Assembly (NCBI RefSeq): GCF_025061645.1
Contig: NZ_JANYMP010000051.1
Coordinates: 1 to 43,009 of the forward strand
Source: Umezawaea endophytica
Lineage (GTDB): Bacteria; Actinomycetota; Actinomycetes; Mycobacteriales; Pseudonocardiaceae
Length of the DNA stretch: 43,009 nt
Direction of reading: 5' to 3'
Part shown: positions 15,534-36,414 of the stretch, piece after piece
How the letters are laid out: each line of letters begins with the position of its first letter
Position numbering within the stretch: the stretch's first letter is position 1
The notes under the pieces: model-generated
Told to the model about the DNA's origin: nothing
Seen by the model: only the letters and a program-made list of their open reading frames with translations
The model's database searches: none
Made by a program: the position numbers and the translations under genes

Positions 15534-16568
15534 ATGAGCGAGGCAGAACCTGCGGTGATCTACGTAGACGAGTCAGGCAACACCGGAGAGAACTTGAGGG
15601 ATGACGCGCAACCGGTCTTCACGTTCGCGGGTGTGCGGCTGAGTGACGAGCGCGCGTCGGAACTTGTGGGTACGGTGGCCACGAAGCTGCGCAAGTCGGG
15701 ACCCGAAGAACTCAAGTCTCGTTCGCTGCTGAGGAACGACAGGACTCAGAAGATCCTTCTTGATGCTCTGCAACAACTTCCCGCCGAGACCGCCTTCACG
15801 CTGGTGGCCGACAAGCAGTACGTGACCGTCTCGAAGCTCGTTGACCTGCTTGTCGTGGAGACCATGGCGAACAGCGGCTACGACATGTATTTGGATGGTT
15901 CCGCACGCTCTCTCGCGCACCTCTACTACTACATCGGACCAGTCATTGGAGACGCTGAGGCGTGGCAACGACTTCTTGTCACCTTTGTAGATTTCGCCGT
16001 AGGCAAGGAAGAGGTTTCACCTGACCGGTTCTTCGCCTCGATCGAGGCCTACTTGGCCACTGTCAGTCTCGACGAGCACGATCCGTTTTCGATGCTGGGA
16101 TCGATCCAGCTCGAAGGTTGGAAGTGGTGGACTAGCCGCCGCCGAGGTGAGTTCAAGGACTCCCTTGATCCCGCGCTCGCGGCATTCGCTGTCTTCTCCC
16201 ACGAGATCGGTCAACGGATCGGGCCGTTCAAGCTCGTCTGCGACGAGTCTGCGGTGATCCAACGTCACGCGTCGTTCGTGTTGAACGTTGGTGAATACCC
16301 AGACCTTGCAAACCCTGGAACGAACTTGCCTTCCTCACCGATCACCGAGCTCGTCTTTGCCGACAGCGCTACGAGCGCCCAGATCCAGATCGCTGACTGG
16401 ATTGCTGCCACGTCCCGACGGTATGCGGCAACCCGGCTCAAGGACTCGAAGGCGAAGCCGGTGTTGCCTGAATTTGGCGAACTCGTTGAGAGCTGGATGG
16501 TGTGGAACATCTGGCCGGATTCGGTCGAGCAGTTTCAGGCGGATCTAGGGCAGGGAGCTGGTAGCTAG
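15534..16568 (+). CDS. DUF3800 protein, cargo gene within the head-tail region, 344 aa
   Basis: The N-terminus has the family signature YVDESGNTGEN (residues 10-20), followed by FTFAGVRLS. Later come a YYYIGPVIGDA segment, and near the C-terminus the QIADWIAATSRRY motif. DUF3800 proteins are thought to have an RNase H-like fold with acidic active-site residues (here D12 and E13). The function is not established, though members often lie in mobile or defence regions. It runs against the structural operon, between the adaptor gene and a connector gene, and meets the latter tail to tail with a 4-base overlap. GC content is lower than in the neighbours. It is most likely a lysogen-expressed moron. 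Confidence 0.85.
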   Translation: MSEAEPAVIYVDESGNTGENLRDDAQPVFTFAGVRLSDERASELVGTVATKLRKSGPEELKSRSLLRNDRTQKILLDALQQLPAETAFTLVADKQYVTVSKLVDLLVVETMANSGYDMYLDGSARSLAHLYYYIGPVIGDAEAWQRLLVTFVDFAVGKEEVSPDRFFASIEAYLATVSLDEHDPFSMLGSIQLEGWKWWTSRRRGEFKDSLDPALAAFAVFSHEIGQRIGPFKLVCDESAVIQRHASFVLNVGEYPDLANPGTNLPSSPITELVFADSATSAQIQIADWIAATSRRYAATRLKDSKAKPVLPEFGELVESWMVWNIWPDSVEQFQADLGQGAGS

Positions 16569-16965: not shown

Positions 16966-17163
16966 CTAGGCCGGGTCCTTGCCGGTCTTCCCGGTGACCG
17001 CGCTCGGCGGTCGACCTCCGGCCGCGCGCACGCCCAATTCGGCGGGTAGTCCGCGTAGGGCCTCGATGGTGTCCTTGTCGGTTACCTCGGCCTCGCCGTC
17101 GACGAACGTCACACCCAGGTCGTGGACGACGAGCTGCGGGTACTGCGGGCTGACGAACTTCAC
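16966..17163 (-). CDS. Small head-region protein, 65 aa
   Basis: A GTG at 17163 overlaps the stop of the capsid gene (GTGA). The product begins KFVSPQYPQLVVHDLGVTF, then has a charged segment (DGEAEVTDKDTIEALRGL) and ends in a basic, flexible tail. Small proteins like this are common after actinophage capsid genes and may serve as decoration or connector components. No firm family assignment. Confidence 0.65.
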   Translation of the reverse strand: MKFVSPQYPQLVVHDLGVTFVDGEAEVTDKDTIEALRGLPAELGVRAAGGRPPSAVTGKTGKDPA

Positions 17164-18155
17164 GTGCCACCCCCGACCGGGGCCGTGGCCAGGCCGGTGA
17201 TCTTGCCGTGGGCGATCTCCGGCCCGTACTCCAGGCCGATCTCGCCGTAGATCTGCGCCCGGTCGGTGCTGCCGGTCTTGGCGAGCGGTTCGGAGAACAG
17301 GAACCCCTTGCCGGGCGACTCCAGCAGGACGGGGGCGCACTGGTCGAGGCTGACCACCTGGACAACGTCGGTGGGCATGTACCGGTTGAGCATGATGTTC
17401 AACCTGCCGAAGTCCGTCTCGATCGTGGTGACCGCGACGCCACCGACGTTGCGGGTGGCCTCCTGGTAGTTCTTCTTGGTCACGAACTCGGTGGTGAGCT
17501 GCCGCTTCTGCCACGCGTTGCACATCAGAGTGGCGGTCTCGGACACCTGGATGCCGCCGTTCTCCCAGACCTTTTGCAACAGGTCGATGACCATCGCTTC
17601 GGTCAGCGGCTTGGCGGTGGCGTTGGTGATGACGTTGGTCCGGGTGGCGTCCAGGATGCCCCTGGTCTTGCGCGCGGTGCTGTTGGTGGTGGGTTCCTGG
17701 TAGATGCCGGTCAGGAACGTCAACTCGACGTCACGGGCGATCTGCACGAGGGCCTGGCGGGTCTGCCAGTCCATCTCGACCGCAACCGCGTTGCTGCCAC
17801 CGATCGCTGCGGCGTTGGGGTTGGCCGCCCCGGTCCCGGCGAACATGTTCTGCGTAGCCTGCCGGGTGTAGGTCACGCCCACCGTCTCCTGGTGGATTTC
17901 CAGGACGTTGCGGTCCTGGCCCCGGATGCGGGTCTCGGCCGGTGGCGCGTCCGCGCCTTCCAGACGCTGGCGTGCGGGGTCGGGTGGGCGCAGGTCGTAG
18001 ACGGTCCAGGTGTGCACGATCGCGTTCGCACGGCGCCCGCCGGTCAACCCGCCGATCGAGCTGAGGAACGGCGTGTCGGTCGGCGTCAGGCCGAAGAGTT
18101 CACCGACGTAGTTGGGGGAGTTGTAGGTGTTGGCGATGGCAGCGATTCCGGGCAA
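17160..18155 (-). CDS. Major capsid protein, SU10/DUF5309-like, 331 aa
   Basis: It forms the icosahedral head. The N-terminus NYVGELFGLTPTDTPFLSSIGGLTGGRRANAI and the later QTVG-type segment (HQETVGVTYTRQATQNMFAGTG) match the SU10-like major capsid family, which has an HK97 fold. The C-terminal half contains a P-domain-like stretch (FGRLNIMLNRYMPTDVVQVV) and KTGSTDRAQIYGEIGLEYG. The TTG at 18155 has AAGGAGG upstream. It follows the scaffold gene, as usual. Confidence 0.9.
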   Translation of the reverse strand: MPGIAAIANTYNSPNYVGELFGLTPTDTPFLSSIGGLTGGRRANAIVHTWTVYDLRPPDPARQRLEGADAPPAETRIRGQDRNVLEIHQETVGVTYTRQATQNMFAGTGAANPNAAAIGGSNAVAVEMDWQTRQALVQIARDVELTFLTGIYQEPTTNSTARKTRGILDATRTNVITNATAKPLTEAMVIDLLQKVWENGGIQVSETATLMCNAWQKRQLTTEFVTKKNYQEATRNVGGVAVTTIETDFGRLNIMLNRYMPTDVVQVVSLDQCAPVLLESPGKGFLFSEPLAKTGSTDRAQIYGEIGLEYGPEIAHGKITGLATAPVGGGT

Positions 18156-19148: not shown

Positions 19149-20114
19149 TTATCGGATGTAGCCGAACCGCTTGAGCTGGTGGACCAGTTCCGCGCGGTCG
19201 TCGGCCGCGTTCACGAGCTGCGCCGGGGTCGGTCGATCGACACGCGAGCGGACGTAGCGGGAACCGGGTCGTTTGGACAGCTCTCCGAGCTGACGACCGA
19301 CACCGCGTTTGGTGGTGGCCTCGCGGGTGAACTCGTAGCCACCGGCGGTGTAGACCGCGCCCCGGCGGCGGGCGTTGACGACACGGGACATGTCCGCCCC
19401 GGTCCGGATCGCCTCAGCGGCATCCGCACCGAACGCCTTGTCCTGCTGGGCACGGGTCATCCGCTCGAACAAGGTGCCCGGCGATGCGCTGGCCGGGCCG
19501 GTGCCCCACTGGTCGTGGGTGACCGGCTTCATCCCGCAGTCACAACGCGGATGCCGCAGGAATCCTTGGCTGTAGCGGTAGAGCCGACCGGACAGGATGA
19601 CGCACCGCCCGCACGCGGGCAGGACCACGACCCGCTCGTATCCCGCGATCTCGGGTTCGACCGTGGCGGCGATCTGAACGGCAAGGCGGCCGGTGTCGGC
19701 GACCTCGGTACTGACGTAGGTCAGCAACCGGTGCAACCCCAACGCCCGCGCCTCCGAGGGCGGCGCCCCGAGATCCAGTGCGCGCCGTAGGTAGCCGACC
19801 GCGAAGTCCAACAGCGGCGCGAGCAGCAGCCCGTTGGCCGCCATCCCCACGAACGCACCCGCCACCAGCAGACCGAGCGGAGCCGATACCGCCGCCGCGG
19901 CGGCCAGCGTGCCGAGCACATAGGACTGCGCCAACCCTGCGGCCTGGGCCTGAGCCTGTTCCACGGCGGTGACGACTTCCGGCCGCACGTCGGCTTCCCA
20001 GGACTGTTCCAGGTCGGCGACGTCGAGTCGGGTCCACGCGGTCTGGGCTTGCTCGACCGCCTGGCGGACGGTGACCTGCTGGGCGGTGTACTGCTGGGTA
20101 TCCAGTGGCGTCAC
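19149..20114 (-). CDS. MuF-like minor head protein, 321 aa
   Basis: It lies between portal and scaffold, the usual place for Mu F-type head morphogenesis proteins. The first 130 residues are helical with an Ala-rich stretch (VLGTLAAAAAVSAPLGLLVAGAFVG). A zinc-type cluster follows: CGRCVILSGRLYRYSQGF, then HPRCDCGMKP. This is characteristic of actinophage MuF-like proteins. The C-terminal region is basic (RRRGAVYTAGGYEFTREATTK). No toxin domain is obvious at the C-terminus. The GTG at 20114 is the first start. A 144-base gap separates it from the portal gene. Confidence 0.85.
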   Translation of the reverse strand: MTPLDTQQYTAQQVTVRQAVEQAQTAWTRLDVADLEQSWEADVRPEVVTAVEQAQAQAAGLAQSYVLGTLAAAAAVSAPLGLLVAGAFVGMAANGLLLAPLLDFAVGYLRRALDLGAPPSEARALGLHRLLTYVSTEVADTGRLAVQIAATVEPEIAGYERVVVLPACGRCVILSGRLYRYSQGFLRHPRCDCGMKPVTHDQWGTGPASASPGTLFERMTRAQQDKAFGADAAEAIRTGADMSRVVNARRRGAVYTAGGYEFTREATTKRGVGRQLGELSKRPGSRYVRSRVDRPTPAQLVNAADDRAELVHQLKRFGYIR

Positions 20115-20258: not shown

Positions 20259-21779
20259 TCAGCGACCGGTCAGCGCCGCTTCACGGAACACCACGGCGGC
20301 GTTCCCCCGTCGAGGCGCGGGAACCCGCGGTAAGCCCTGCGCGCTGTCGACTGGCGGCACAGGGGGCGTCTGGCCGGTGTCAGGTTTCGGGCCGAACTCG
20401 GCGGCTTGGTCTTCGCCCGTGATTCGCTGGTAGGCCTGCTGGTCCTCGGCTTCCATGTCCAGGATCTGCGCGTCGGAATAGCCCAAGGCCCGCCGTGCGG
20501 AACGGCGGGGCAGGAGCTTGTCTGCCGAGTACAGCTTGACCACCCCGTCCGCCTGCGCGGCGAAGGTGGGGGTGGATGGGTCGACCCACTGGGTTTCGAC
20601 TCGCAGCGCTTCCTGCGGTACGCGGCCGTCGCGCACGTGCAGGACACGGCGGACGACTTCCTCCCAGCCGTCGCCGAAGCTACGTTGACGGCGTTCGGCG
20701 CGCTTGATGTGACGGGACTCCGAAGACCGGATGCCGTCCGCCGACGCCGGGTTCTCCGTGGCATAGCCCAGGAAGTGCGGCGGCAACCCCGACAACGACG
20801 CCACCAACCTGGACAGTGCGTTGAGCGTGTTGTGGAAGTTCGACAGGTCGGCCTCGGGGAACTGCCCGACCGCGACCCCGTCCTCCTTCGGGGACTTGGA
20901 CGAGGCCCATAGGACCCCGGCGACCGCTTCCCACGGGGTCAGCGGCTTCCCCTGCGCGTCAACGAAATCTTCCTTGTCGAACCCCAGCGCATACCTTCTG
21001 GGCATCGCGTGGAACTCAGCGCTGATCATCATGTCGGTGGCGATCTTGCACGCGGCATCCGAGAGCGGGAGCACACTGGCCAGCTCGGAGCGCCCGAGCC
21101 GCGGAGGTGCGGTGCGGCGTCTGCGAGTCCGCGGGCGGTTCACCAGCGGGACGACGGGGACCGCGCCCATGCCGTGTTCGTCGCGGTCGCTCTCCTCCCA
21201 GACCGCGCCGCCGTTGTCGGAGGAGTACCAGATGGTCTCGTTGGGCAGGTAGAGGGTGGCGTAGGCCTCGGTGAGGCCGTCGCCGCTCTCGTCGTCGTAC
21301 TGCCGCTTGACCGCAGCCCGAACCTTGCGGGTGCGCGGGTCCAGATCGACATGGACGTCCAAGGGGGATTCGACCGTCACCAGCGGCGTGTTCGTCCGGT
21401 CCTCGTTGGTGCCGACGATCGCGAACGACCGGCCCAACGTGAGGGCGTCGATGTGGGCCTGCTCGGAGTGCAGGTCCAGCCGGTTGGCCTGCCAGATCGC
21501 CCACAGTTCCCGATCGGCCGCCTGCTCGCCGCCGAGCCGGAACCCGGTGACGTCGAGGCGTTCGTCCAAGGCGTCCACGACGAGCTGCGGCCAGTTGATG
21601 ACGACCTGGCGGACCCTGTTGTCCAATCGGCGGATCAGCTCCGGGTGCATGTACGACAGCGACTGTTCGCCCTCGTAGTAGGAGTCGAGCACCTCCAATT
21701 CCGGGATCTGTGCGTTGTGCAGCCGAGACAGGCGGGCCACCCACTGCTCAGGGGACAGCTCAAACTTGGTGGTGATCAG
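20259..21779 (-). CDS. Portal protein, SPP1 gp6-like, 506 aa
   Basis: It forms the dodecameric ring through which DNA is packaged and ejected. Motifs seen: LHNAQIPELEVLDSYYEGEQ near the N-terminus, VVINWPQLVVDALDERLDVTGFR, IDALTLGRSFAIVG, a central PLVNRPR, then FHNTLNALSRLVASLSGLPPHFLGY and ENPASADGIRSSESRHIKRAERRQ. All are standard for actinophage portals of this family. A CTG at 21779 with GGTGGTGAT upstream gives a sensible N-terminus (ITTKFELSPEQW). The ATG at 21803 lacks a ribosome binding site and would add eight hydrophobic residues. The C-terminus after residue 440 is disordered. Confidence 0.92.
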   Translation of the reverse strand: MITTKFELSPEQWVARLSRLHNAQIPELEVLDSYYEGEQSLSYMHPELIRRLDNRVRQVVINWPQLVVDALDERLDVTGFRLGGEQAADRELWAIWQANRLDLHSEQAHIDALTLGRSFAIVGTNEDRTNTPLVTVESPLDVHVDLDPRTRKVRAAVKRQYDDESGDGLTEAYATLYLPNETIWYSSDNGGAVWEESDRDEHGMGAVPVVPLVNRPRTRRRRTAPPRLGRSELASVLPLSDAACKIATDMMISAEFHAMPRRYALGFDKEDFVDAQGKPLTPWEAVAGVLWASSKSPKEDGVAVGQFPEADLSNFHNTLNALSRLVASLSGLPPHFLGYATENPASADGIRSSESRHIKRAERRQRSFGDGWEEVVRRVLHVRDGRVPQEALRVETQWVDPSTPTFAAQADGVVKLYSADKLLPRRSARRALGYSDAQILDMEAEDQQAYQRITGEDQAAEFGPKPDTGQTPPVPPVDSAQGLPRVPAPRRGNAAVVFREAALTGR

Positions 21780-21832
21780 AACGATCACCACCAAGATGGG
21801 CATGCCGAGGATGTCAGCAGCAGTGGAACCTC

Positions 21833-21844: not shown

Positions 21845-22810
21845 GTGACCGCTGACCCCATGCTCCCGTTTGATACTGAGGTTGACGGCAACAGGGTGGA
21901 GCACGGTGACGCCTATGACCTGCTCGCGACCTTGCCGGAGGCCTCAGTCGATCTGATCATTACCTCGCCCCCGTATTGGGGGCTGAGGTCATACGGGCAG
22001 CAACACGACGAGTCTGTTTTGAAGAAGTGGCTCGATTTGGGGAATGACGTTAGCGACGCTCCTAGTTACGATTGGTACCGCCAGAACGGTGGCATGCTGG
22101 GATTGGAGCCACTTCCCGAGTGGTTCGTTGCCCACCTGGTCGAAATCTTCGAGCGCGGAAAGGATGCGCTCAAGCCAGGAGGGAGCATGTGGATCAACTT
22201 GGGGGATACCTATTTCGCTCGATGGTCAAGCATTCGGGAAAATGGACGGCAAGGCCTAGGTGGGAATGCGCGAGAACGTCGCCGCACTCCAATGGGTGGA
22301 TTTCGCCAAGAAAAGCAGTTGCTGATGGTCCCCGCGCGCTTCGCTATCGCAATGCAAGACAACCGATGGATTTTGCGAAACGACCTAATTTGGTCTAAGC
22401 CGAATGTGCCTCCGCGGCCGGAAGTTGACCGCCTACGACTTTCTCATGAGCACTTCTTTCACTTCGTTAAGCGCCAAAAAGAAGGCCGTCCGAAGTATTA
22501 CTACAAGCTTGACCAGGTGGAGGACGGGACTCGCGACGTTGTTGAAGTCAACGTTGGGTCTGGTTCGGGCGGACACTCGGCGACGTTCCCACTCAAGCTC
22601 ATCAAGCCGCGCATTGTCAGCTCTTGCCCGCCTCGCGGAACTGTGCTGGATCCGTTTTGCGGTACGGGGCGGGCGCTGACCGTTGCTATCGAGACCGGTC
22701 GAAAAGCAATTGGTTTCGAAATGAATGAACCATTTGTGAAAGCCGCGCGCCTCGGCCTGCTTGGAGTGAGCAAAAAAGAGCAAGCGCAAGGGGGAAAGCG
22801 TGAGCGGTAA
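21845..22810 (+). CDS. Site-specific DNA methyltransferase (beta class), 321 aa
   Basis: It transfers a methyl group from SAM to an exocyclic amino group. The catalytic motif TSPPYW comes first (residues 40-45) and the SAM-binding motif DPFCGTGRA last (about 269-277), the beta-class order. SPPY is more typical of N4-cytosine than N6-adenine enzymes. A target-recognition region lies between, including LIWSKPNVPPRPEVDRLRLSHEH. The neighbouring restriction gene starts 11 bases before its stop, so the two form one operon. GC content is lower than in the phage genes around it, a sign of separate acquisition. In the lysogen it would protect host DNA from the partner nuclease. Confidence 0.9.
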   Translation: MTADPMLPFDTEVDGNRVEHGDAYDLLATLPEASVDLIITSPPYWGLRSYGQQHDESVLKKWLDLGNDVSDAPSYDWYRQNGGMLGLEPLPEWFVAHLVEIFERGKDALKPGGSMWINLGDTYFARWSSIRENGRQGLGGNARERRRTPMGGFRQEKQLLMVPARFAIAMQDNRWILRNDLIWSKPNVPPRPEVDRLRLSHEHFFHFVKRQKEGRPKYYYKLDQVEDGTRDVVEVNVGSGSGGHSATFPLKLIKPRIVSSCPPRGTVLDPFCGTGRALTVAIETGRKAIGFEMNEPFVKAARLGLLGVSKKEQAQGGKRER

Positions 22811-23921
22811 AAGTAGTAGAAGTAAGCGCGAGCCCGGCAACTTTATTGCCGAGTGGTTTGGTCACCGCGTCTACCCAATTGTTGCCAACAGTGGCAGAGC
22901 TTATGAGGACCAGGACGGTAAGCGGTGTCCCTTCGTCTCTGACGTCACAGGCACTTCAACTGGCTGCGTCAAGCCAACATCAAAAGGTGTCTGCACTGTC
23001 AGCAGCACGAGCAACGGTGTGAGGCAAGATTGGCTTGCGTGTCCGTATCGGGTTCTTGACCCAGTCCTCTTGGACAACGCCGCGCGCCGCTTGTTTGGCC
23101 ACGAGGCTGACTCTCATGTAAACCTCGTACCGATGACCACTCTGGAACATCGTCCTGGTGCCACCCGTTTCCGCGAGGCGGTCAGGGAAGGCGTGCCGAG
23201 TATCGTGTACTTCCAGAACCGCTTGGGAGGTGAAATCGGCATTAGGGCCACGCCGAGGTCTCCACAGCTTTCGTTCGACGCCACGATGATCGAGATTTTG
23301 CCAGGCGATACGCCAACAGGCCTAAAGCTTGGCCGGTATGGCATCTTCGAGATCCAGACAATGGATTTTCATGGTAGCTACCGTGCAGCGATGAAGAATC
23401 TTGAGAATGCGCTACATCTTCACAAGGAAAAATTTGCCGAAGCTGTTCAGGGCAACCCGCAATGGGTCTCAGAGGGCATGGAAGGCCCCAACATTGCGAA
23501 CGTGTTCAAGCGTACTTTCTATCAGATGATGTTCAAATTCCAGATTGGTGGCCACGGCGACTCTACGGGATGCGTGTTCGCGCTGCCGCGCGCCGTATGG
23601 GACAGTTGGCAGCGCCACCTTGGGGCACCCGAGCTGGTCGAGCAAGAAGACGGAACTTGGCGTTTGCGAACAGACAAATTTACTTTGCCGTCGAAGCCCT
23701 CTTCCTGGATCTATGTATTCGACATTGAGGCTGATAGTGACGTTTCGCCGAGTCCCATCAAGCTCTGGCGAGTAATCGGCACCAGCGCCGAGATCCTTGC
23801 TCACTACGCGCTCGACGTCGCGCCCGCGGCAGCACTGGAAGTAGGGGGATCGGTCGAACAGCTTTTGAATTCAGTCAGGACGAAACTCCGTAAGTGTCTT
23901 CCTGAGCTTGCGCTTGGCTAA
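22800..23921 (+). CDS. NotI-family type II restriction endonuclease, 373 aa
   Basis: Four cysteines (C43 in RCPF, C56, C65, C81 in ACPYR) fit the N-terminal Cys4 metal fold that sets NotI apart. A nuclease core follows: D160 in LSFDATMIEIL and the E184-x-Q186 pair in YGIFEIQTMDFHGSYR, a PD-(D/E)xQ-type variant as I recall for NotI. Length is close to that of NotI (about 380). It overlaps the methyltransferase by 11 bases, so the two are co-translated, and it ends 3 bases from the end of the convergent terminase gene. Together they would cleave unmodified incoming DNA, and protect the lysogen from other phages. The recognition sequence cannot be read from the gene; GCGGCCGC is a guess by homology. 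Confidence 0.85.
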   Translation: MSGKSSRSKREPGNFIAEWFGHRVYPIVANSGRAYEDQDGKRCPFVSDVTGTSTGCVKPTSKGVCTVSSTSNGVRQDWLACPYRVLDPVLLDNAARRLFGHEADSHVNLVPMTTLEHRPGATRFREAVREGVPSIVYFQNRLGGEIGIRATPRSPQLSFDATMIEILPGDTPTGLKLGRYGIFEIQTMDFHGSYRAAMKNLENALHLHKEKFAEAVQGNPQWVSEGMEGPNIANVFKRTFYQMMFKFQIGGHGDSTGCVFALPRAVWDSWQRHLGAPELVEQEDGTWRLRTDKFTLPSKPSSWIYVFDIEADSDVSPSPIKLWRVIGTSAEILAHYALDVAPAAALEVGGSVEQLLNSVRTKLRKCLPELALG

Positions 23922-23924
23922 GAC

Positions 23925-25696
23925 TTATCCAAGCACTGTCATCTTGGATGACTTGCGAGGTTTCTGGCCGCGCAACCGCCATCCACCCACCGCCATCGCC
24001 GCAGTCGGCACGGCGTCGATGCGCTTGCCGGTCTTACCGCGTTCAGGCTTGTCCGGCCGGATGAGGTCGGGTTCGCCAGGTGGGTGGCGGACTTCGACAG
24101 AGTCGAAGCAGAACGCCGCGACGGGGTTGCCGTGGTGTGACCACGCCCGTGAGCGGGTCAGGGTCATCAGTTCGGTCATGCCGTGGGTCATGCCCTTGTA
24201 GGTCTGCGGTACCGGGTACATCGGCACGCCGGTCCGGCGTTCCAGGCGTTGCCGCACCGGTTCGCCCGACCACTCGTCGTAGGAGATGTCGGCGACGCGC
24301 AACAGGCCGGTGTCTGCGGTGACGTCGTCCTCGATCACGTCGTAGTCGATGACCTCGCCATCTGTGACGGTGATCCACCCCTGCTCGACCCAGCGGGACA
24401 CGCGGCCCTCGGTGAAGTCGTCCAGAAAGCTCACGCCGGTCTCCGGGAGCCAGAACCTCCACAGCACCGACGGGTGGCCGTCGATGCCCTCCGGCACGAC
24501 CAGGCACCACGCGGTCAGGTCCAGTTTGGACGCGAGGTCGAGTCCGCCCCATGCGGGTCGACGGGCCAGCGCTTCGCGCAGCCGTGCCGGGTGGTCTGTT
24601 TCGGTGCCGGTGCACGCGGTGTAGAGGTGCATTGGCATCCACCGCGTGGTCTGCGAGACCCACTGGTTGAGCCGGTACTGGCGAAACGAGTTCTCCCGCG
24701 CGGGGTCATTGAGGGCTTCAAGGGCTTCCTCCCGTAGCGCGGACAGCGACAGGAAGTCCCCGAGCGCGGGGTTGGAGTGAAACCAGTTCCTCTCGTCCCA
24801 CGGGTCGGCGTCCTCAGGCAGGTTGCGCAGGTAGACGAACCTGTGCGGCGCCCGTGACGGGTCGTCGGCGATCTTCACGCACTCGTCGTGCTCGGCCTTG
24901 GCGAACGAGCTGGGGTCGTCGCCAGCGGGGTCGCCGCGAGCAACAGCGGCTCCAGTCGGGTGCCCATGCCGGTGCGCATCGCAGTCCAGAACCGCCCATC
25001 CGGCTGAGTCAGGACCTCGTCGAAGATCACACAGGACGGGTTGGAGCCCAGGTTGCCCAACGCGTCGGAGGGAACGACGACGTAGACGGAGTTGGTCTTC
25101 TCGTCCACGATGCGCGCGGAGTGCTCGATGACCCGCAACCGCTTGGACAGCACCGGGGACAGAGCGACCATGCGGGCGGCGACGTTGAACACGAGCTTGG
25201 CCTGATCGGTGTCGCGGGCACAGCCGTAGACCTCGGCGGACTCCACGCCGTCGCCGACGAGCATGTAGAGCGCGACGAACGCCAACAGCTCGGACTTGCC
25301 GTTCTTGCGGGCGAGCTCGATCCAGCCGATACGGAACCGACGCACGTAGCACTGGGCTTCGTCGTCCCACCGGACCTCGCCGAACAACGGCCGCACGATG
25401 TCATCGCGCTGCCACGGGGCGAGGACGAACGGCTTGCGCGCCCACCTGTCCTTGGTATGGACACAGATTTCCTCAGCGAACGCCTGGGCGTGGTCAGCGC
25501 GAGGCTTGCAGAGGTGTTCGCCGCGTTTGCGGCAAGTGTGGCCATCGAAAGTGCGCCCGCACACCGGCAACCGCGCCCCGCGATGGGGTGTCTTGGTGGT
25601 TGTTCGGGGCGTAGCGGTGCCGGTGCGCGAACTGGTCGTGGTGCGCTGGTGGTTTGCGCGGGACTTAGCTGAGGAGGCGGCCCGGTCCGCCCGCAT
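23925..25696 (-). pseudogene. Terminase large subunit, split by a one-base frameshift
   Basis: It is the packaging motor ATPase and nuclease. The first part (25,696 to about 24,930) has the Walker A-like ELARKNGKSE (residues 128-136) and Walker B VIFDEV (223-228), and begins with a Cys/His cluster (CGRTFDGHTC...HLC). After LLLAAT the frame breaks. The family sequence resumes in the -1 frame as PAGDDPSSFAKAEHDECVKI and runs to the stop at 23925, including the nuclease-side motifs GGLDLASKLDLTAWC and DDVTADTGLLRVADISYDEW. The break is at a run of four C (24,927-24,930, G on the plus strand) where five would keep the frame. Unshifted translation stops at 24,875 (273 aa). It may be real inactivation, a sequence error or, least likely, ribosomal slippage. 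Confidence 0.85.
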
Positions 25697-26123
25697 TGTG
25701 GTCGCCGCCCACCTCCACCTTGATGGCCTGACGATCCGACGGCGTCAGGCCGAACCGGGCGGCGTAAGTCAGGAATGTCCGCTCAGCCTCGGCCTGAACT
25801 TGCAACGCGGGGTTCTTCATCAGGCCGGATCCGCCCTGCACCAGCAGCGCAGATCCGTTGACCAAGGCCGTGGCATTGCGGTAGCGGTTGAGCGCCTCGC
25901 ACAGCACAAGGAACGCATCGGCGTCCCACGAGGTGAGTACGCCTCGCTGCTCTAGTCCGGGACCAAGCCGCGCCCAGATTTCGCGGGCACCATCCGAGGC
26001 CCAGTCTTGGCAGGCGATGTCCTGCGTGGGCGGAATGGGCTCGGTGTCGTTGATGCGGTCGGTGCGATCGCCGTGCAGGACGCGGAGTTGTGTCGGCTTC
26101 GCCGCCGGACCGCGCTTTCCCAC
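25665..26123 (-). CDS. Terminase small subunit, P27 family, 152 aa
   Basis: It recognises phage DNA and hands it to the large subunit. The opening GKRGPAAKPTQLRVLHGDR is typical for P27-type small subunits, followed by IPPTQDIACQDW, WARLGPGLEQRGVLTSWDADAFLVLCEALNRYR and a C-terminal TYAARFGLTPSDRQAIKV. I choose the GTG at 26123, since GGAGG lies 8-9 bases before it; a GTG nine bases upstream lies inside that signal. It overlaps the large subunit gene by 32 bases, a normal arrangement. Confidence 0.9.
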   Translation of the reverse strand: MGKRGPAAKPTQLRVLHGDRTDRINDTEPIPPTQDIACQDWASDGAREIWARLGPGLEQRGVLTSWDADAFLVLCEALNRYRNATALVNGSALLVQGGSGLMKNPALQVQAEAERTFLTYAARFGLTPSDRQAIKVEVGGDHNAGGPGRLLS

Positions 26124-26132
26124 TTCGAACAC

Positions 26133-28818: not shown

Positions 28819-30120
28819 CTAGAGCCCTTCGGACAGCAGATTCAGAGCGGTCTGTGCGGTATTGCTGCTCTCCCTGGCAGGGAACAGGACGGCCATGTCA
28901 CGGGCCTTACGGGCATCCTCGGTACCGGGCTTGACGGGCTTGACGGTCTGGGTCCAGCACAAGACGGCCAGCAGAGCGGCCCACCTGGTGCTCTTGATCT
29001 TTTCGGTGAGGTCCACCTCACCCCGGAACAGCTTGCCCACCACCCCGGAACGGAGGTCGTAGAGGTCGAACAGGGCCTTGCCGGCACCGGGCTGCGGCTT
29101 GTCCTTCAATACCGTGTCGGCGAACGTCTCGAACTGCTGAGCGGTCATTTTCTTATGGCTCAGCTTGGTGGCGATCTCGCCGAACCCCTCCGCGAACCGG
29201 GTGAACAGGTCCAGGGCTTCACTGGCTTCGGTGATCCTGGTGTCGGAGTTGTTGTCCGGGGTCAACTCCACCCGGTCGGACAGGTCCGGCAAGACCACCG
29301 GGATGACGGTGTGGGTGCCGGTGTGCACCGGCATCACCCGGAGCACGGAACCACGGCCGGGCACCAGGGAGTTGACCAGGACGGCCCTCATCTCCACGGT
29401 GTCCACCTTGCCCACCGGCACCATGTCCGGCACCCGGACAGAGGCAAAAGCTCCGGTGGAGTCCCACAGCGGACCGGCGGGACCGGTCTTGGCACCGGTG
29501 GACTTGAGGATCTCGGTCAGGATGCTGCCCCGGACCTCAATCGGTACCGGGTTGGCCTCACGGATGGTGTGCCCGATGTGGCGGAACCCGAATTCCTCGG
29601 CCTTGTCCACCATCACCAGAGACCACACACCCGGTGCTGCCACCGGCACGGTGGTGTGGTCCGGCTCCACCAACCCCTTGTCATTGGGGTAGTCGGCCAG
29701 CATGGGGCACCCGGAGGTGTGCTTACGGCCTGATACCTGGTCACAGTCGGTGCACTTGTCGGACGGGACCAGAGCGGCCATCGGCTGACGGGTGACACTC
29801 CACCCGGACACCCCTGCCTTTTTCAGCAGTTCGTTCACGGTCCGGCTGCTGTTGTTCGCCGTCGCGAGCCGCGACCACACGTCCTTGTCCGGCCGGACCT
29901 GCACCGGCTCCTCCACCTTGGCTTTTGCCGGTGCCTTGACGGGCTTGCCCTCTGCGGGGGCGGCTACGGGCTTGGCCGGTGCCTTGTCCCTGGTGGTCTT
30001 GGCCGGTGCCTTGCCCTCCACCTTGGTCGGTACGGCCTTGACGGGTACAGGTTTGGTTTCCACCTTGGCCGGTGCCTGCTGGGACTCCTGGATGGGGGCA
30101 GGGGTCTTCGGTTCAGTCAT
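28819..30120 (-). CDS. DUF932 phage/plasmid-like protein with K/A/P-rich tail, 433 aa
   Basis: Residues about 85-430 match the DUF932 (phage/plasmid-like) pattern: TVNELLKKAGVSGWSVTRQP, then EEFGFRHIGHTIREANPVPI, ITEASEALDLFTRFAEGFGE with MTAQQFETFADTVL, and LFDLYDLRSG...IKSTRWAALLAV. A CTDCDQ...SGCPML cluster could bind zinc. The first 80 residues are an unstructured tail of Lys, Ala, Pro and Val (VETKPVPVKAVPTKVEGKAP), unusual for this family. It could bind nucleic acid. The function of DUF932 is unknown; a role in phage DNA metabolism or recombination has been suggested. It is isolated, with its own promoter and terminators on both sides. Confidence 0.85.
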   Translation of the reverse strand: MTEPKTPAPIQESQQAPAKVETKPVPVKAVPTKVEGKAPAKTTRDKAPAKPVAAPAEGKPVKAPAKAKVEEPVQVRPDKDVWSRLATANNSSRTVNELLKKAGVSGWSVTRQPMAALVPSDKCTDCDQVSGRKHTSGCPMLADYPNDKGLVEPDHTTVPVAAPGVWSLVMVDKAEEFGFRHIGHTIREANPVPIEVRGSILTEILKSTGAKTGPAGPLWDSTGAFASVRVPDMVPVGKVDTVEMRAVLVNSLVPGRGSVLRVMPVHTGTHTVIPVVLPDLSDRVELTPDNNSDTRITEASEALDLFTRFAEGFGEIATKLSHKKMTAQQFETFADTVLKDKPQPGAGKALFDLYDLRSGVVGKLFRGEVDLTEKIKSTRWAALLAVLCWTQTVKPVKPGTEDARKARDMAVLFPARESSNTAQTALNLLSEGL

Positions 30121-30216: not shown

Positions 30217-30301
30217 GCCTTTTAGGGAATCTCCGGACAAAGTGACTACGAACGGTCTAACGCATATTCGGACGATCTTCGACGTGGAGTCGTGGCAATG
30301 A

Positions 30302-30334
30302 AAAAGGGGCCGCGAACAGTGTCCGCGACCCCTT
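30302..30334 (-). terminator. Rho-independent terminator upstream of the DUF932 promoter
   Basis: On the minus strand a stem of AAGGGG-CGCG type (arms near 30321-30334 and 30304-30315) is followed by TTTTT. It lies between the divergent DUF932 gene and the plus-strand cargo genes, and would insulate the DUF932 promoter from leftward readthrough. Confidence 0.65.
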
Positions 30335-30657
30335 CCCGTTCTCGTCGGACCAGTGTCACCTAAACCCGAGGGAACGCCGGACATCATGTCGCATCACCGT
30401 GACCACTGTCGAGTCATGGCCTCTCACCAGCGAATACGGTCGACATGGCACGGCAGTGCGTCGCATCATCGAAGTCATCACCGGAAAAGAAATCGCATTC
30501 GTCAACATTCAATGGATCACAGGAGAGGGTTTCTGCTCCATTCGGGTGATCTTTGCTTGTATTCATTGTCCGGACATAAGAGAATTGACATTGTGCGGAA
30601 TTGCTCGGTCTGGGGTGTGGCAACACCCCGGACGGGAAACGAGAAGCGGAGTGAACA
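30335..30657 (+). other. Leader region of the plus-strand cargo genes
   Basis: No gene is called with confidence. A plus-strand frame from a GTG at 30399 (94 codons) runs through the hairpin and past the next start, has no ribosome binding site and becomes AT-rich, so it is doubtful. TTGACA at 30585-30590 may be a -35 box, although a clear -10 is missing. The end of the stretch holds leader hairpin 1 (30612-30629). Confidence 0.4.
30612..30629 (+). repeat. Leader hairpin 1 (GGTGTGGCAACACC family)
   Basis: Stem GGGGTGT/ACACCCC (7 bp) with a GGCA loop lies 28 bases before the ATG at 30658. Between hairpin and start is an A/G-rich stretch with CGAGAAGCGGAGTG. The core is shared with two other hairpins downstream. 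Confidence 0.8.
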
Positions 30658-31161
30658 ATGGCAGTGGAAATCGACGACCGTGAACCCCGGACGGAAATTG
30701 TCCGGGGGCGACGTGTGTACGGCGCCCAGTGGGCGCGCACCGCGGAACTGGGCACGAAAGCCTTGGCGCGGCGGATCGTGCTGGACGTGGAGTACAAGTA
30801 CGGCCTGACCCACGCGCCGCTCGACCCGGACCGGCCGTTCGGGATCGCGGCATGGGTCTACCGCGCACCCTCGGGCGACTGCATCGACTTCGAGGTCTAC
30901 GGCATGACCGACAGCCTCCTGCGCGACCCGCAGTGGAGCGGGCAACTGCGCACCGACCTGGGGCACCTTGTGGCTCGGTACAACTGGGTCAACCGCGAGC
31001 GTCCGCAGGACCAGAGGTTCGGCGGTGGCGCGGTCTACCTGTGCACCGAGGCCGAGGAGCGCGCCCGCGACGGCCGCTCCGGACACGTGAGGGTCTACCG
31101 GCGCTGGCTGGGTTGGCTGGGACGGCGCTTCCGGCCGTACCTGCCCGTCGCCTGCGACTGA
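30658..31161 (+). CDS. Unknown cargo protein, 167 aa
   Basis: No family recognised. It starts with the ATG at 30658 behind an A/G-rich ribosome binding site (GCGGAGTG). The sequence is basic at the start (DDREPRTEIVRGRRVYGAQW), then mixed: LDVEYKYGLTHAPLDPDRPF, FGIAAWVYRAPSGDCIDFEV, and a basic C-terminus (RVYRRWLGWLGRRFRPYLP). The middle looks like a mixed alpha/beta globular fold. It is the first of four same-direction genes with shared leader hairpins. The GC-rich third codon position agrees with a true gene. Confidence 0.75.
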   Translation: MAVEIDDREPRTEIVRGRRVYGAQWARTAELGTKALARRIVLDVEYKYGLTHAPLDPDRPFGIAAWVYRAPSGDCIDFEVYGMTDSLLRDPQWSGQLRTDLGHLVARYNWVNRERPQDQRFGGGAVYLCTEAEERARDGRSGHVRVYRRWLGWLGRRFRPYLPVACD

Positions 31162-31194
31162 TCACCCCGGATACAGCGACGCCCCCGGTCAAAC

Positions 31195-31208
31195 GGTGTG
31201 GCAACACC
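31195..31208 (+). repeat. Leader hairpin 2 (GGTGTGGCAACACC family)
   Basis: GGTGT/ACACC stem (5 bp) with a GGCA loop lies 34 bases after the preceding stop and 40 bases before the ATG at 31249. The motif GAGAAACGG follows near the start codon, as in the other two leaders. Confidence 0.8.
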
Positions 31209-31248
31209 ATCCCAGGGGCGCGCTGTCGGAACCCGAGAAACGGCGAAC

Positions 31249-31671
31249 ATGAATTCCGACGAACCGCAGACTAGCAACCCCGACGAGCACGCGGTCTTCC
31301 TCGCCCACGGCGTGCTGGAGATCGCCCGAGGACAGTTCGGCCGCGCGGTGACCAGGCTCGCCACCCAGTCGAGCGCGGAAGCGACCGCGTTGCGCACTGT
31401 GCTGACCGAGCAAGCCTCCGAGGTGCGCGCACTGCACGCGCTGTCTGTGGGCTACGGGTGGAGCGACGCAATCCACCGCGTCACCACTCCGGACGCGCTC
31501 GCCCGTGCCCGCGAACACGGCCACGTCGGCACCGACCTGGCGACCGGGTGCCCAGTGCTCACCGGGACCGGCCAGCGCGCGCTGTCCCGGTGGCGGGACT
31601 TCGTCTTACCACTGCGGGACCTGCCCGAGTACGCGCCTATGTGGCTGTTCGTCCACGGGCTGGACGGCTGA
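31249..31671 (+). CDS. Unknown cargo protein, 140 aa, helical
   Basis: The ATG at 31249 follows GAGAAACGG; an upstream GTG at 31198 lies within the hairpin and is unlikely. The product is mostly helical: EHAVFLAHGVLEIARGQFGR, then SAEATALRTVLTEQASEVRA and a C-terminal WRDFVLPLRDLPEYAPMWLF. The polar N-terminus (NSDEPQTSNPDE) is disordered. No family recognised. It is followed directly by leader hairpin 3. Confidence 0.75.
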   Translation: MNSDEPQTSNPDEHAVFLAHGVLEIARGQFGRAVTRLATQSSAEATALRTVLTEQASEVRALHALSVGYGWSDAIHRVTTPDALARAREHGHVGTDLATGCPVLTGTGQRALSRWRDFVLPLRDLPEYAPMWLFVHGLDG

Positions 31672-31680
31672 CCTATTCAC

Positions 31681-31712
31681 CGCTGCCCCGGTGTGGCAAC
31701 GCCGGGGCAGCG
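31681..31712 (+). repeat. Leader hairpin 3 (GGTGTGGCAACGCC family), 14-bp stem
   Basis: Arms 31681-31694 and 31699-31712 pair over 14 bp with one G-T pair, again with a GGCA loop closed by T-A. It starts 9 bases after the previous stop and ends 20 bases before the next ATG. CGAGAAAGG follows, parallel to the other leaders. The G-T pair replacing A-T keeps the stem as RNA. Confidence 0.8.
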
Positions 31713-31732
31713 CTTCGAGAAAGGCACTACGC

Positions 31733-32446
31733 ATGACGGAACCAGCGGACACCGCCCATGACGGGCAGGAAGACCTGGACGTGCACGGCATGTTCCTGAT
31801 CATGAACCTGTTGGGCGGCTGCAAGGGATTGCGGCTGCGCGAGGGGATGAGCGAGTACGTCACGATCGAACACGGCGAGACGGTCGACTACGACGACGTG
31901 CAGCGGGTGTACGCGCGGGCGGATCTACTCGAACTCCCGGTCCGCTACTCCGACACGGTCGGCAGCGACATCGACGTGGTGAACCAGCAGGAACTCGTGG
32001 TCGAGTTCGGCGCATCGACGTTCGTCGTGCTCCACAACGAGTTCGCCGACGCGCACGGTCTCGCGTTGCCGGTGTGTCGACCGCTTCCCGGCGACGCCGA
32101 CAACTCCCGACTTCGCCGACTGTTCGAGATGGTGACCCGCTTGAGCGATCACCCGGTGTTGAACAAGGAACGCCACGCCCGCTACCTCAACGACTTGGCG
32201 GACATGGCATGGCGATCACACGTGCGCCGCTCCGTGATCGCGGCTCTGCCCGACCTGTCGCCGGATGACGAAGGCGACCAGCGGATCACCGGTGCCGCCC
32301 TTGACACCCGCGAGCCGATCAAGACCGCCTACTTCGGGTTCGAGGACACCACGTGGACGGCCACGACGCGGTACACGGTCAAGAACGCCCGTCACGACGA
32401 TGCGGTCCGGTATGTGGCCGTGACCCTGTTCGGTTGGGAGGTCTGA
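31733..32446 (+). CDS. Unknown cargo protein, 237 aa
   Basis: It starts at the ATG at 31733 behind GAGAAAGG; the longer frame upstream belongs to readthrough of the previous region. The sequence is acidic with alpha/beta character: VHGMFLIMNLLGGCKGLRLR, EYVTIEHGETVDYDDVQRVY, then IDVVNQQELVVEFGASTFVV, and a helical block LRRLFEMVTRLSDHP. The C-terminus ends in strands with RYTVKNARHDDAVRYVAVTL. No family recognised. The next gene begins 2 bases after its stop, so the two are coupled. Confidence 0.75.
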   Translation: MTEPADTAHDGQEDLDVHGMFLIMNLLGGCKGLRLREGMSEYVTIEHGETVDYDDVQRVYARADLLELPVRYSDTVGSDIDVVNQQELVVEFGASTFVVLHNEFADAHGLALPVCRPLPGDADNSRLRRLFEMVTRLSDHPVLNKERHARYLNDLADMAWRSHVRRSVIAALPDLSPDDEGDQRITGAALDTREPIKTAYFGFEDTTWTATTRYTVKNARHDDAVRYVAVTLFGWEV

Positions 32447-32448
32447 TC

Positions 32449-32835
32449 ATGGCGAAGCTCGACAGGAGCGCGGTGGACCTGCCGCCGTTGCCGGTGCAGT
32501 ACGAGGACTTCTACGACGGCCACGAGTGGCGCGGGGAGATGCAGCAGCGCGGCTGGAGCGTGCCCGGCTTGTGGGGCCGAGACGGCTGGAACCTCGGCAC
32601 GTGGCCGCTTACAGCGGTCGCGCTGTTCGCCGCGCCGACGGCGAAAGTCTGGGCCTATGTCACCTATGTGGAGGGTGACGTGGACGTGCACGCGTTCGAC
32701 AGCGAGGACGAGCGCGACCGGGCGGTCACAGAGGAAGTGGTGTTCTGGTGGCGCAACGGGGACGCGGTCGGCCCCGAGGACCTTCCGGAGACCGGCTACC
32801 TGGAGCACCACCACGGCCCGTTTCCGGGATTCTGA
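32449..32835 (+). CDS. Unknown cargo protein, 128 aa, Trp-rich
   Basis: The ATG at 32449 lies 2 bases after the preceding TGA, with GGGAGG upstream in the end of that gene. The product contains seven or so tryptophans (YDGHEWRGEMQQRGWSVPGL, GRDGWNLGTWPLTAVALF, VVFWWRNG) and an acidic strand region (VTYVEGDVDVHAFDSEDER). No family recognised. A strong terminator follows at 32861. It has no leader hairpin of its own, consistent with coupling to the gene before it. Confidence 0.75.
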   Translation: MAKLDRSAVDLPPLPVQYEDFYDGHEWRGEMQQRGWSVPGLWGRDGWNLGTWPLTAVALFAAPTAKVWAYVTYVEGDVDVHAFDSEDERDRAVTEEVVFWWRNGDAVGPEDLPETGYLEHHHGPFPGF

Positions 32836-32860
32836 TCGCAGCGAACTGAACACGTGAACT

Positions 32861-32890
32861 GAGGGGGACCGGTGTGCACCGGTCCCCCTC
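32861..32890 (+). terminator. Terminator of the cargo operon
   Basis: A perfect 14-bp inverted repeat (GAGGGGGACCGGTG with its complement, 32861-32874 and 32877-32890) around TG is followed by TTG. It lies 25 bases after the last cargo gene. Confidence 0.8.
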
Positions 32891-32981
32891 TTGCATGTCC
32901 GGCCCCGGACGGCTCACAGGGCCGGACAGCGGCTCTACCGGTGACGGAGCGGGTTGCTCTGCCGGTCACTCGGATGCAGTA

Positions 32982-32997
32982 TCGAACGCGTGTTCGA
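32982..32997 (+). promoter_or_regulatory. LexA (SOS) box, perfect actinobacterial consensus
   Basis: TCGAAC-GCGT-GTTCGA is an exact match to the mycobacterial/actinobacterial LexA site TCGAAC(N4)GTTCGA. It lies 28 bases before the GTG at 33026. The downstream gene is therefore likely repressed by host LexA and induced by DNA damage. Confidence 0.75.
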
Positions 32998-33025
32998 AAA
33001 TTCAGCTCAGGACTCCCCGGACCTC

Positions 33026-34703: not shown

Positions 34704-35242
34704 GCGGTGGCTCCTGGTGTGGTGGTCACGGCGTCGAGTCGGCTCGGGTGCGCGCGGCTGTGCAGGTCGCGGGTTTCCCTGCCGCCGTTACGAAGTCGAG
34801 TGGTGCGTCGGCACGTGACGCCGGGTAGCGCGCCACAGACTGGGCAGGTGTGGCCCAGGGCATCCGTGGCGCGGGAGGGGTCGGCGCGCGTCCATCCGGC
34901 GGCGGCGTAGACGGCCGCGATGCCCCGCCGCCCGGCCGCCGCGAACAGCGCCCGGTCGTTGTCGGTGGGGCGGCGGCGCGGTGTGCGCGCCTCGGTGTAG
35001 CGGCGGGCGGACTTGATGCGCTGGATGATCTCGGCCGGGGTGATTCGGTCGGTGACCTTCCCGGCGGCCAGTACGGCGGCGTGACACTCGCCGAGGCTGT
35101 ACCCGGCCAGTGCTGAACGCCACGCCCGAACGTCGGCCTCGCCGGGGGCTTGGCCCCGGAAGTGCGCGATCATCGCCAGCACCGAAGCCACCTCGGCACG
35201 GCTCATCATCTGCTGGTCGAACCGGGTCGTCACGGCGCTCAT
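34700..35242 (-). CDS. Helicase-loader-like N-terminus with zinc finger, 180 aa
   Basis: Residues 10-75 (MMSRAEVASVLAMIAHFRGQ, DVRAWRSALAGYSLGECHAA, then DRITPAEIIQRIKSARR) resemble phage helicase loader/inhibitor proteins of the G39P type. The C-terminal part has CPVCGALPGVTCRR followed by HSRAHPSR, an actinophage zinc-finger pattern. The neighbouring O-like replication gene stops at its start (35,242), so the pair probably recruits the host replicative helicase to the phage origin. The ATG at 35242 sits in an overlap with the preceding stop. Confidence 0.75.
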   Translation of the reverse strand: MSAVTTRFDQQMMSRAEVASVLAMIAHFRGQAPGEADVRAWRSALAGYSLGECHAAVLAAGKVTDRITPAEIIQRIKSARRYTEARTPRRRPTDNDRALFAAAGRRGIAAVYAAAGWTRADPSRATDALGHTCPVCGALPGVTCRRTTRLRNGGRETRDLHSRAHPSRLDAVTTTPGATA

Positions 35243-36414
35243 CAGGCCACCCCCGCCAACGCGGGCGCGCCAACGAAGGATCCCGAGCCGCCCTTGGGAA
35301 CGTCCCCGCGGCCTGAGGCGACGCCCAGAACGGCGGCCAGGTGCTGCGGGGCCGGGTCGTGCTCGCCGATCTCGCCGTCCTCGATCGCCATCCGGCGCAC
35401 GAGTTCCATCGCCGCGGCCACTGCGTCGTCGCTGCGGGACCGCCCCGCGGCTTGCGCGATCACCGGTGCCCGCATTGCTTCGGCGACCAGCTCCGGGAGC
35501 AATCCCACCCCGAGCCGCTTGCCCGCCCAGGTCCGAAGACCGGTCACGACGTGCTCGGCCGCTATTCCCTCGCCCAGCAGCCCGGACACCTGGCCCACCA
35601 GGCGGGAAACGACCGTGCGGGGCAGGTTCGGCACGAGCTCGGCAACCAGCCGCGCGGCGTCCTCGCGTGTGCGCACACCCTCGTGTGCGGGCGCGACGCC
35701 CTGAACTTGAGTTTCACTCAACGAGACAGGGACTACGAACCCCTTCCCCCTACCCCCTTCCCCCTGACCCAACGCGGAAGGGATCTCCGAAGGGATCCGG
35801 GAAGGGGTCCCCGATCCCTTCCCCAAGGTCTCGACCACGAGTGGCGCAGGGGTCGGCCGCGACTGCGTATCGGGTGCGGAGTCGGGCTCGACGGACGCCG
35901 TCGACGCCGTGCCGGTATCGCGACGTCGGCTCGGCGCGCACGCGGCCTTGACCTCCGAGGGCATCGTGCCCACGCCGTCGACGAGCGCCGCGGCGGCCAA
36001 CCCCGGCGCCGCTCCGCACCGTGCCGGTAGACGGTGCAACTCGGCGGCCACCGCCGCCCGCAGGATCGGACTGGAGATCGCGAACGACTCACGGATCGCG
36101 GCGGCCAACGTGTTGGGTTGCTTCCAGATGCCGTCGTTGCGCACCAGCGACCGGACGAGCACCTCCTCGGTGTCGTGGTCGGCCAGCGCGAAGCGGGAGT
36201 CGTGCAGTTCGGCGAGCGCGGTGGTGATGGTGTCCACGCTGGTGGTCGAACACATCGATGCCCAGCGGCGCAGTCGCATCGGCACCAGACCGCAGTAGGA
36301 CAGGTCCTCTTGCGACAGCAGAAGCATGTAGAGCCGCTGGGCGTCGCCGGACAGGGCTCGCCAGTCCGGGTCGTTCCAGATGGTGATGATGAGTCGGGCA
36401 TGGTCACGCGCCAC
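35242..36414 (-). CDS. O-like replication initiation protein, 390 aa
   Basis: The N-terminal 130 residues form a winged-helix-type DNA-binding region as in phage replication proteins: HARLIITIWNDPDWRALSGD, YMLLLSQEDLSYCGLVPMRL, VDTITTALAELHDSRFALAD and VRSLVRNDGIWKQPN. A long Ser/Pro/Gly linker follows (residues about 160-235). A helical C-terminal domain (LVAELVPNLPRTVVSRLVGQ, then LRTWAGKRLGVGLLPELVAEAM) probably contacts the helicase loader next door. The linker-coding DNA contains iteron-like repeats (35,740-35,822), reminiscent of the lambda origin lying inside gene O. The start is the GTG at 36414. Confidence 0.8.
   Translation of the reverse strand: MARDHARLIITIWNDPDWRALSGDAQRLYMLLLSQEDLSYCGLVPMRLRRWASMCSTTSVDTITTALAELHDSRFALADHDTEEVLVRSLVRNDGIWKQPNTLAAAIRESFAISSPILRAAVAAELHRLPARCGAAPGLAAAALVDGVGTMPSEVKAACAPSRRRDTGTASTASVEPDSAPDTQSRPTPAPLVVETLGKGSGTPSRIPSEIPSALGQGEGGRGKGFVVPVSLSETQVQGVAPAHEGVRTREDAARLVAELVPNLPRTVVSRLVGQVSGLLGEGIAAEHVVTGLRTWAGKRLGVGLLPELVAEAMRAPVIAQAAGRSRSDDAVAAAMELVRRMAIEDGEIGEHDPAPQHLAAVLGVASGRGDVPKGGSGSFVGAPALAGVA
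35740..35822. repeat. Iteron-like repeats, candidate phage replication origin
   Basis: GGAAGGGATC-type decamers start at 35776, 35788 and 35800, exactly 12 bases apart (the second begins CGAAG, the third ends GGGTC). An inverted perfect copy lies at 35813-35822. CCCCTTCCCCCT occurs twice next to them (35740-35751 and 35754-35765). All lie in the linker-coding part of the replication gene. Confidence 0.6.

Follow-up and report, generated by a model that had tools for sequence, protein, structure and literature searches.

In the lambdoid phages the N/nut system uses boxB hairpins with phage-specific loops on variable stems, which are read by cognate proteins. In phage Mu the Com protein binds a hairpin loop upstream of the mom gene and activates mom translation, as described in the cited part of that work (PMC6483171), and in phages T4 and RB69 the gene 43 operator includes an upstream hairpin with loop bases that matter, according to the section of the study used here (PMC3014915). 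The SAS and ESAS repeats of the cluster K phages are located upstream of several phage gene starts, with an ESAS consensus that differs by subcluster (cited sections of PMC3203893 and PMC12699233); in the corresponding section of PMC3203893 the ESAS authors see little support for mRNA hairpins. A description of an element like the one presented here was not found in the literature, as covered by open-licence papers.

The window (the whole analysed stretch of 43,009 nucleotides) is an entire contig of the 11-Mb genome of Umezawaea endophytica and contains a prophage. The plus-strand gene set g1-g4 (30658-32835) is oriented opposite to the listed minus-strand prophage genes. The features are the following.

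2094-3755, minus strand: serine integrase
10165-13035, minus strand: tape measure protein
13760-14404, minus strand: major tail protein
17160-18155, minus strand: major head protein
19149-20114, minus strand: protease
20259-21803, minus strand: portal protein
23925-26132, minus strand: terminase
28819-30120, minus strand: DUF932 protein
30538-30553, plus strand: CCATTCGGGTGATCTT upstream motif, read by eye, possibly a promoter or operator
30608-30633, plus strand: hairpin 1 in the g1 leader, 11-bp stem with one T-G pair, GGCA loop with T-A closing (hexaloop TGGCAA), exact core 30614-30627
30658-31161, plus strand: g1, 167 aa, no family match, proposed loop reader
31173-31226, plus strand: hairpin 2 in the g2 leader, long two-part arm, inner stem GGTG/CACC, hexaloop TGGCAA, exact core 31195-31208
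31249-31671, plus strand: g2, 140 aa, model resembling MarR-type winged helix proteins at a non-significant level (best E 0.2)
31681-31712, plus strand: hairpin 3 in the g3 leader, 14-bp stem with one G-T pair, hexaloop TGGCAA, exact core 31690-31703
31733-32446, plus strand: g3, 237 aa, function not assigned
32449-32835, plus strand: g4, 128 aa, begins 2 nt beyond the g3 stop codon and lacks a hairpin
35242-36414, minus strand: replication initiation protein

Full prophage annotation covers the window among the 15 elements described below. Pfam and PADLOC models gave no match to g1-g4, the best PHROGs values for the four proteins were only E 0.028 (g2) and 0.081 (g3), and NCBIfam returned for ten proteins a single match (FtsL, E 0.02), which is below the cut-off. 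PDB sequence profiles yielded nothing at E 1 for g1 and g2, and Foldseek yielded nothing at E 0.001 against PDB (g1, g2) or BFVD (g1); the predicted g1 model has a mean pLDDT of 77.5. The search of plasmid and phage records gave no match. Amid the minus-strand structural genes a DUF3800 protein, a DNA methylase and a neighbour without assigned function are encoded on the plus strand (15534-16568 and 21845-23921), and this set is possibly further cargo. A perfect 13-bp hairpin at 32861-32890, located 3' of g4, may end the operon transcript, and its other strand has a sub-threshold Rfam match (BjrC68).

The first-pass annotation described three GGTGTGGCAACRCC hairpins ahead of consecutive genes, and this observation was reproduced with 3 exact matches in the window versus a mean of 0.00 in 100 dinucleotide shuffles, all three preceding a prophage gene. 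With 3 mismatches allowed the 22 matches correspond to background (15.3 expected). Across the 11 Mb of the host genome there are 4 matches to the 12-nt core, including the 3 window sites, versus 6 for the reversed control; outside the window sites the core is at background level. The core combined with downstream CGAGAA was found in 3 of 100 genomes, namely the window's own, G002 (six sites) and G041 (one site). The window sites are spaced by about 500 nt ahead of successive genes in one operon, with 34, 44, and 33 nt from the hexaloop end to the ATG and 24, 22, and 20 nt from the stem base to the ATG for hairpins 1, 2, and 3, respectively.

Several details of the initial description need correction. 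Stems of 7, 5, and 14 bp had been proposed; the last value holds for hairpin 3, while hairpin 1 has 11 bp and the 5-bp stem of hairpin 2 is the tip of the longer two-part arm (ACAGCG-A-CGCCCC opposite GGGGCG-CGCTGT). The (C)GAGAA(A/G) motif does follow the window hairpins, but it is variable in relatives (CCAGAAAGG in G128, GAAAGGA in G055), and CGAGAA occupies the expected Shine-Dalgarno position. The coupled fourth gene indeed lacks such a hairpin. The scan for intrinsic terminators (GC-rich stem and T run) gave a sole site at 31584-31599, which is none of the three hairpins; Rfam 15 covariance models gave no match overlapping the hairpins in 30300-33000 at E up to 5, and no gathering matches in loci L049, L050, L051, L053, and L054. 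Loosening the loop by up to 2 extra bases on either side produced scattered extra hairpins, for example at window position 33279 on the other strand, which are not common to the loci.

The proposed search of relatives for hairpins before gene starts identified 36 hairpins in 15 distinct elements. Group I includes the window, two elements of G002, G128, L057, and G055, with three sites each; group II includes G009, L070, L071, G769, G242, L069, G764, G249, and L068, with two sites each. Twelve of the 15 elements come from genomes in the same family as the window (G handles) and one from Actinosynnema, and nine are found also, or only, on IMG/VR viral contigs; repeat copies were counted once (L059-L067 where they repeat L057, G055, G242, G009, or G249, as well as L072, L084-L098, L106, and L107). 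In protein searches g1 relatives were found in 7 and g2 relatives in 8 of 399 genomes; across the class g2 was found in 1 of 394 genomes, the window's own, while g2 of the second type was present in 6 of the 24 genomes searched in one genus and in 1 of the 8 in a further genus. The four-gene set occurs twice in G002 of the same genus and once in G128 of another genus, each time with three hairpins and none before g4. On C1 of G002 the two copies, located near 6.27 Mb and 11.66 Mb (L055, L056), are diverged and have the same loop. In L057 (Actinosynnema pretiosum DSM 44132, Pseudonocardiaceae) g3 was not found and g4 is preceded by its own 10-bp hairpin.

The loop is identical at all listed sites of each element, and eight loop forms of 6-7 nt are distributed over the 15 elements.

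TGGCAA: window, G002 (twice), G128
CGGCAT: L057
CAGCAA: G055
CTAGCA: G009, L070, L071, G769
CTGACA: G242
GTGAGA: L069, G764
CTGGTAA: G249
CTGATAA: L068

The GGCA loop with its closing T-A pair, which had been regarded as invariant, is so only in the window element and its three close relatives (both G002 elements and G128), while elsewhere it is replaced by other loops, each uniform within its element. The group II loops were first spotted by requiring loops that occur twice. In a test without this filter but with the loops found by it, which covered 12 of the 15 elements (without G002b, G769, and G764), all 12 g2 leaders contained a hairpin with their own element's loop and none with the other seven loops, a result seen with shuffled leaders in no more than 0.1% of 2000 trials. 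From the loop end to the start there are 29-44 nt in the group I rows, and in group II 36-40 nt for the g1 rows measured and 67-73 nt for g2. An exception is gene b, the second gene of its elements, which in G009 (L049), L070, and L071 is preceded by a strong hairpin of 12-13 bp whose loop (TCCCCT or AGCACT) is not that of the other sites.

Coupled starts without a hairpin are those of the window g4, of the overlapping second g1 copy (g1b) in G055 (L053), and, in group II, of the second copy of g2. The DUF932 gene of G055 has a hairpin with its element's loop, whereas the window DUF932 gene has none with a TGGCAA loop. Upstream of both the g1a and DUF932 leaders of G055 (minus strand) there is a TTGACT with the inverted repeat AGTGT-N11-ACACT, a shared arrangement resembling a single operator-promoter that the element employs at two places. 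The CCATTCGGGTGATCTT motif or its near variants are present upstream of g1 also in G002, G128, L057, G055, and G226, the last being a locus without a repeated-loop hairpin. In G226 (L052), which contains related genes, no repeated loop was found among 6-7 nt loops closed by TG/CA; the stretches directly upstream of the g2-like genes at three chromosomal loci (L081-L083) also showed no hairpin with a repeated loop (partly judged by eye). These three loci are chromosomal relatives of the second g2 copy and lie beside genes that, judged by reading of the sequence, are glycosidase-like and LacI-like. No leader hairpin was recognised by eye at the distant g3 homologues L026-L028, and the weak g1 matches L034 and L036 are without a TGGCAA feature, the only loop looked for there. 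In seven longer IMG/VR loci (13.7-20.4 kb) no further hairpin with the element's exact loop was found on either strand.

In minimum-energy folds the hairpin is present at all 36 sites. The alignment of five g1 leaders (L056 was left out, where a bulged A broke the register) has 98% of cells paired, both-side changes in 5 of 10 pairs and a covariation score of 0.67 versus 0.25 in shuffled alignments, with none of 500 shuffles as high. In six group II g2 leaders, of which 5 are distinct (L049 with an extra C was left out), 100% of cells are paired and the score is 0.233 versus 0.135 (5 of 500 shuffles), the count of both-side-change pairs not being above shuffles. Four g3 leaders are 88.5% paired with a score of 0.282, reached in 72 of 500 shuffles, which is weak covariation. 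Because the best-sampled stems covary, an RNA (or single-stranded DNA) structure is favoured over a duplex operator, and the original proposal of an "RNA or DNA" element can be narrowed to a single-stranded one, most likely RNA. Its designation as a selected start-associated control element is supported by the retention of the hairpin in relatives with compensatory stem changes and by the separate hairpin of the L057 g4 gene where g3 is absent. In summary, the hairpins are a real and selected leader element, specific to these elements and most likely RNA; the initial interpretation was correct as to the type of element and mistaken as to its invariant core.

Compared with the described systems, the resemblance to mycobacteriophage start-associated sequences suggested earlier holds for the layout of repeated elements upstream of gene starts (PMC3203893, PMC12699233, in the sections cited) and not for the sequence, since the SAS 13-mer GGGATAGGAGCCC has in the window one match with 2 mismatches at 22099 versus 1.07 expected, that is, at chance. 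RNA pairing has little support for ESAS according to the authors of PMC3203893, whereas here pairing is kept by compensatory change. With Mu com/mom the locus has in common a phage RNA-binding protein, here a candidate, that reads the loop motif of a short hairpin upstream of a start codon, predicted six-residue loops, and the location of Com and mom in one operon; Com is a zinc-finger activator with the single target mom (PMC6483171), whereas here there are 2-3 sites per element, the loop varies from element to element, and no known family matches g1. The gene 43 operator likewise has a hairpin ahead of the start of a phage gene that regulates itself, with loop bases varying between phages (UAAC, UAAA), but it overlaps the ribosome-binding site and is bound by a DNA polymerase, according to the cited section (PMC3014915), while here several leaders of one element have a common loop. 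Like phage translational operators, the hairpins have a leader position close upstream of the start and compensatory stem change (weak for g3 leaders). In its logic, the regulon proposed below would resemble both Com/mom control in Mu and the gene 43 operator of T4.

What the loop follows within the operon can be seen in group II. Among seven of its nine elements (G249 and L068 were omitted because of uncertain g1 starts) the 21 pairs have a g1 identity of 58-97% when the loop is the same versus 26-35% when it is different, while for g2 the corresponding ranges of 52-97% and 45-95% overlap; these pairs are not independent and represent three g1 types with essentially one clear replacement. L069 and L070, a natural case of g1 replacement with DNA 77-87% identical over most of 8 kb, have 92% identity in g2 and 35% in g1, and their g2 hairpin has the same stem and a different loop. 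Their operons differ in the segment of hairpin 1 and g1, in gene b, present only in L070, and in an extra g2-like gene of L069. G009 and L070 have the same loop with 54% identity in g2 and 83% in g1, and G764, found later with g2 as bait, combines an L069-like g1 (58%) with the L069 loop. In G249 and L068 (g1 28%, g2 53%) the loops are one base apart.

Among all 15 elements, 10 have a same-loop partner, and for these the nearest g1 relative has the same loop in 9 of 10 cases and the nearest g2 relative in 7 of 10. The misfit is G128, whose nearest g1 relative is L057 (73%), yet the loops differ; private changes of L057 versus G128 (15 versus 8 in g1, 14 versus 19 in g2) bear on it as a weak hint. 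In the longer loci further segments vary too, but they do so also in the same-loop pair L093/L096. Taken from sequence comparison, the loop mostly tracks first-gene identity, which suggests a built-in RNA-recognition switch.

Several other explanations were considered. A phage protein acting on the nascent-RNA loop and modifying RNA polymerase, as in antitermination or termination of the lambda nut/boxB type, is unlikely: element-specific loops on variable stems do recall phage-specific boxB loops, and the G055 sites lie in the leaders of two promoter-like regions, but there are several sites per operon, before individual and successive genes about 500 nt apart in the window. Moreover, a boxA-like YGCTCTTTA pattern (up to 1 mismatch) has 2 window matches versus 5.4 expected, neither near the hairpins, and the group II g1 proteins are without strongly basic composition. 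For a trans-acting antisense RNA, whose loop would pair with the element's loop, a specificity shifting as a set is easy to evolve. Against such a partner, which we regard as quite improbable, no hairpin with a complementary loop is conserved in nine loci beyond the antisense strands of the sites themselves, and in regions of about 3 kb from 13 elements the sense strand contains the loop complement 9 times versus 6.7 expected, 6 of the 9 being self-overlapping CTAGCA sites.

Duplex DNA operators of a repressor, palindromic through dimer symmetry, would account for the core GGTGTGGCAACACC being a 12/14 palindrome, and Pope et al. favour DNA-binding proteins for the ESAS repeats in the cited part of their study (PMC3203893). 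This is very unlikely here: the arms covary between elements, and within one element an unchanged centre is flanked by differing arms that stay complementary, as in L057 with GGTG/CACC and GGCC/GGCC around CGGCAT. Least probable of all are passive mRNA hairpins that need no partner and serve stability, processing, or protection of the ribosome site; they agree with the stable predicted folds upstream of ribosome-binding sites but leave unexplained why the loop is the same within an element, varies from one element to the next, and in L069/L070 is different along with g1.

In the preferred reading, which we consider somewhat favoured by the sequence comparisons, the hairpins would be sites in leader RNA at which a prophage-encoded, loop-specific regulator acts; together they would make up a post-transcriptional regulon, and the g1 product is the likely reader. 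Points against this reading are the G128/L057 misfit, the dependence among the group II pairs, the additional gene differences between L069 and L070, the lack of a significant structural relative of g1, the deviating loop before gene b, the weak covariation of the g3 leaders, and the contrast between the DUF932 genes of the window and G055. The same loop per element on differing but still paired stems indicates that the loop would be read by an element-encoded regulator and that the stem would present it; loop uniformity and its co-tracking with g1 call for such a reader. The g1 product is the best candidate because it is encoded by the first gene of the operon and because g1 and loop change together in group II, and it would bind its own mRNA and that of the element's other genes. 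A slightly acidic composition is seen in the g1 proteins of group II and in the first G055 copy of g1; in group II this counts against a classical basic RNA binder. Control, as repression or activation, would probably act on translation initiation or mRNA stability, as suggested by the leader position (in the window the stem base lies 20-24 nt ahead of the AUG) and the absence of sites at coupled genes. With one known exception, sites precede genes with a translation start of their own, and genes overlapping or nearly touching the previous gene are without a site.

It is a more tentative proposal that g1 may be the founder of a new family of RNA-binding proteins with prophage-specific loop codes, that is, of mutually distinct loop/protein pairs, in which g1 exchange would retune the element's other leaders and related prophages would be without cross-regulation. 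If the preferred reading is right, actinobacterial prophages would have a post-transcriptional regulon for which at least eight loop specificities exist in nature, including one case where a replaced g1 is accompanied by a different loop at a second site. Such a regulon would be a tractable system for the evolution of RNA-protein specificity, could supply candidate orthogonal RNA tags, and would give an initial functional clue to several prophage genes that lack annotation.
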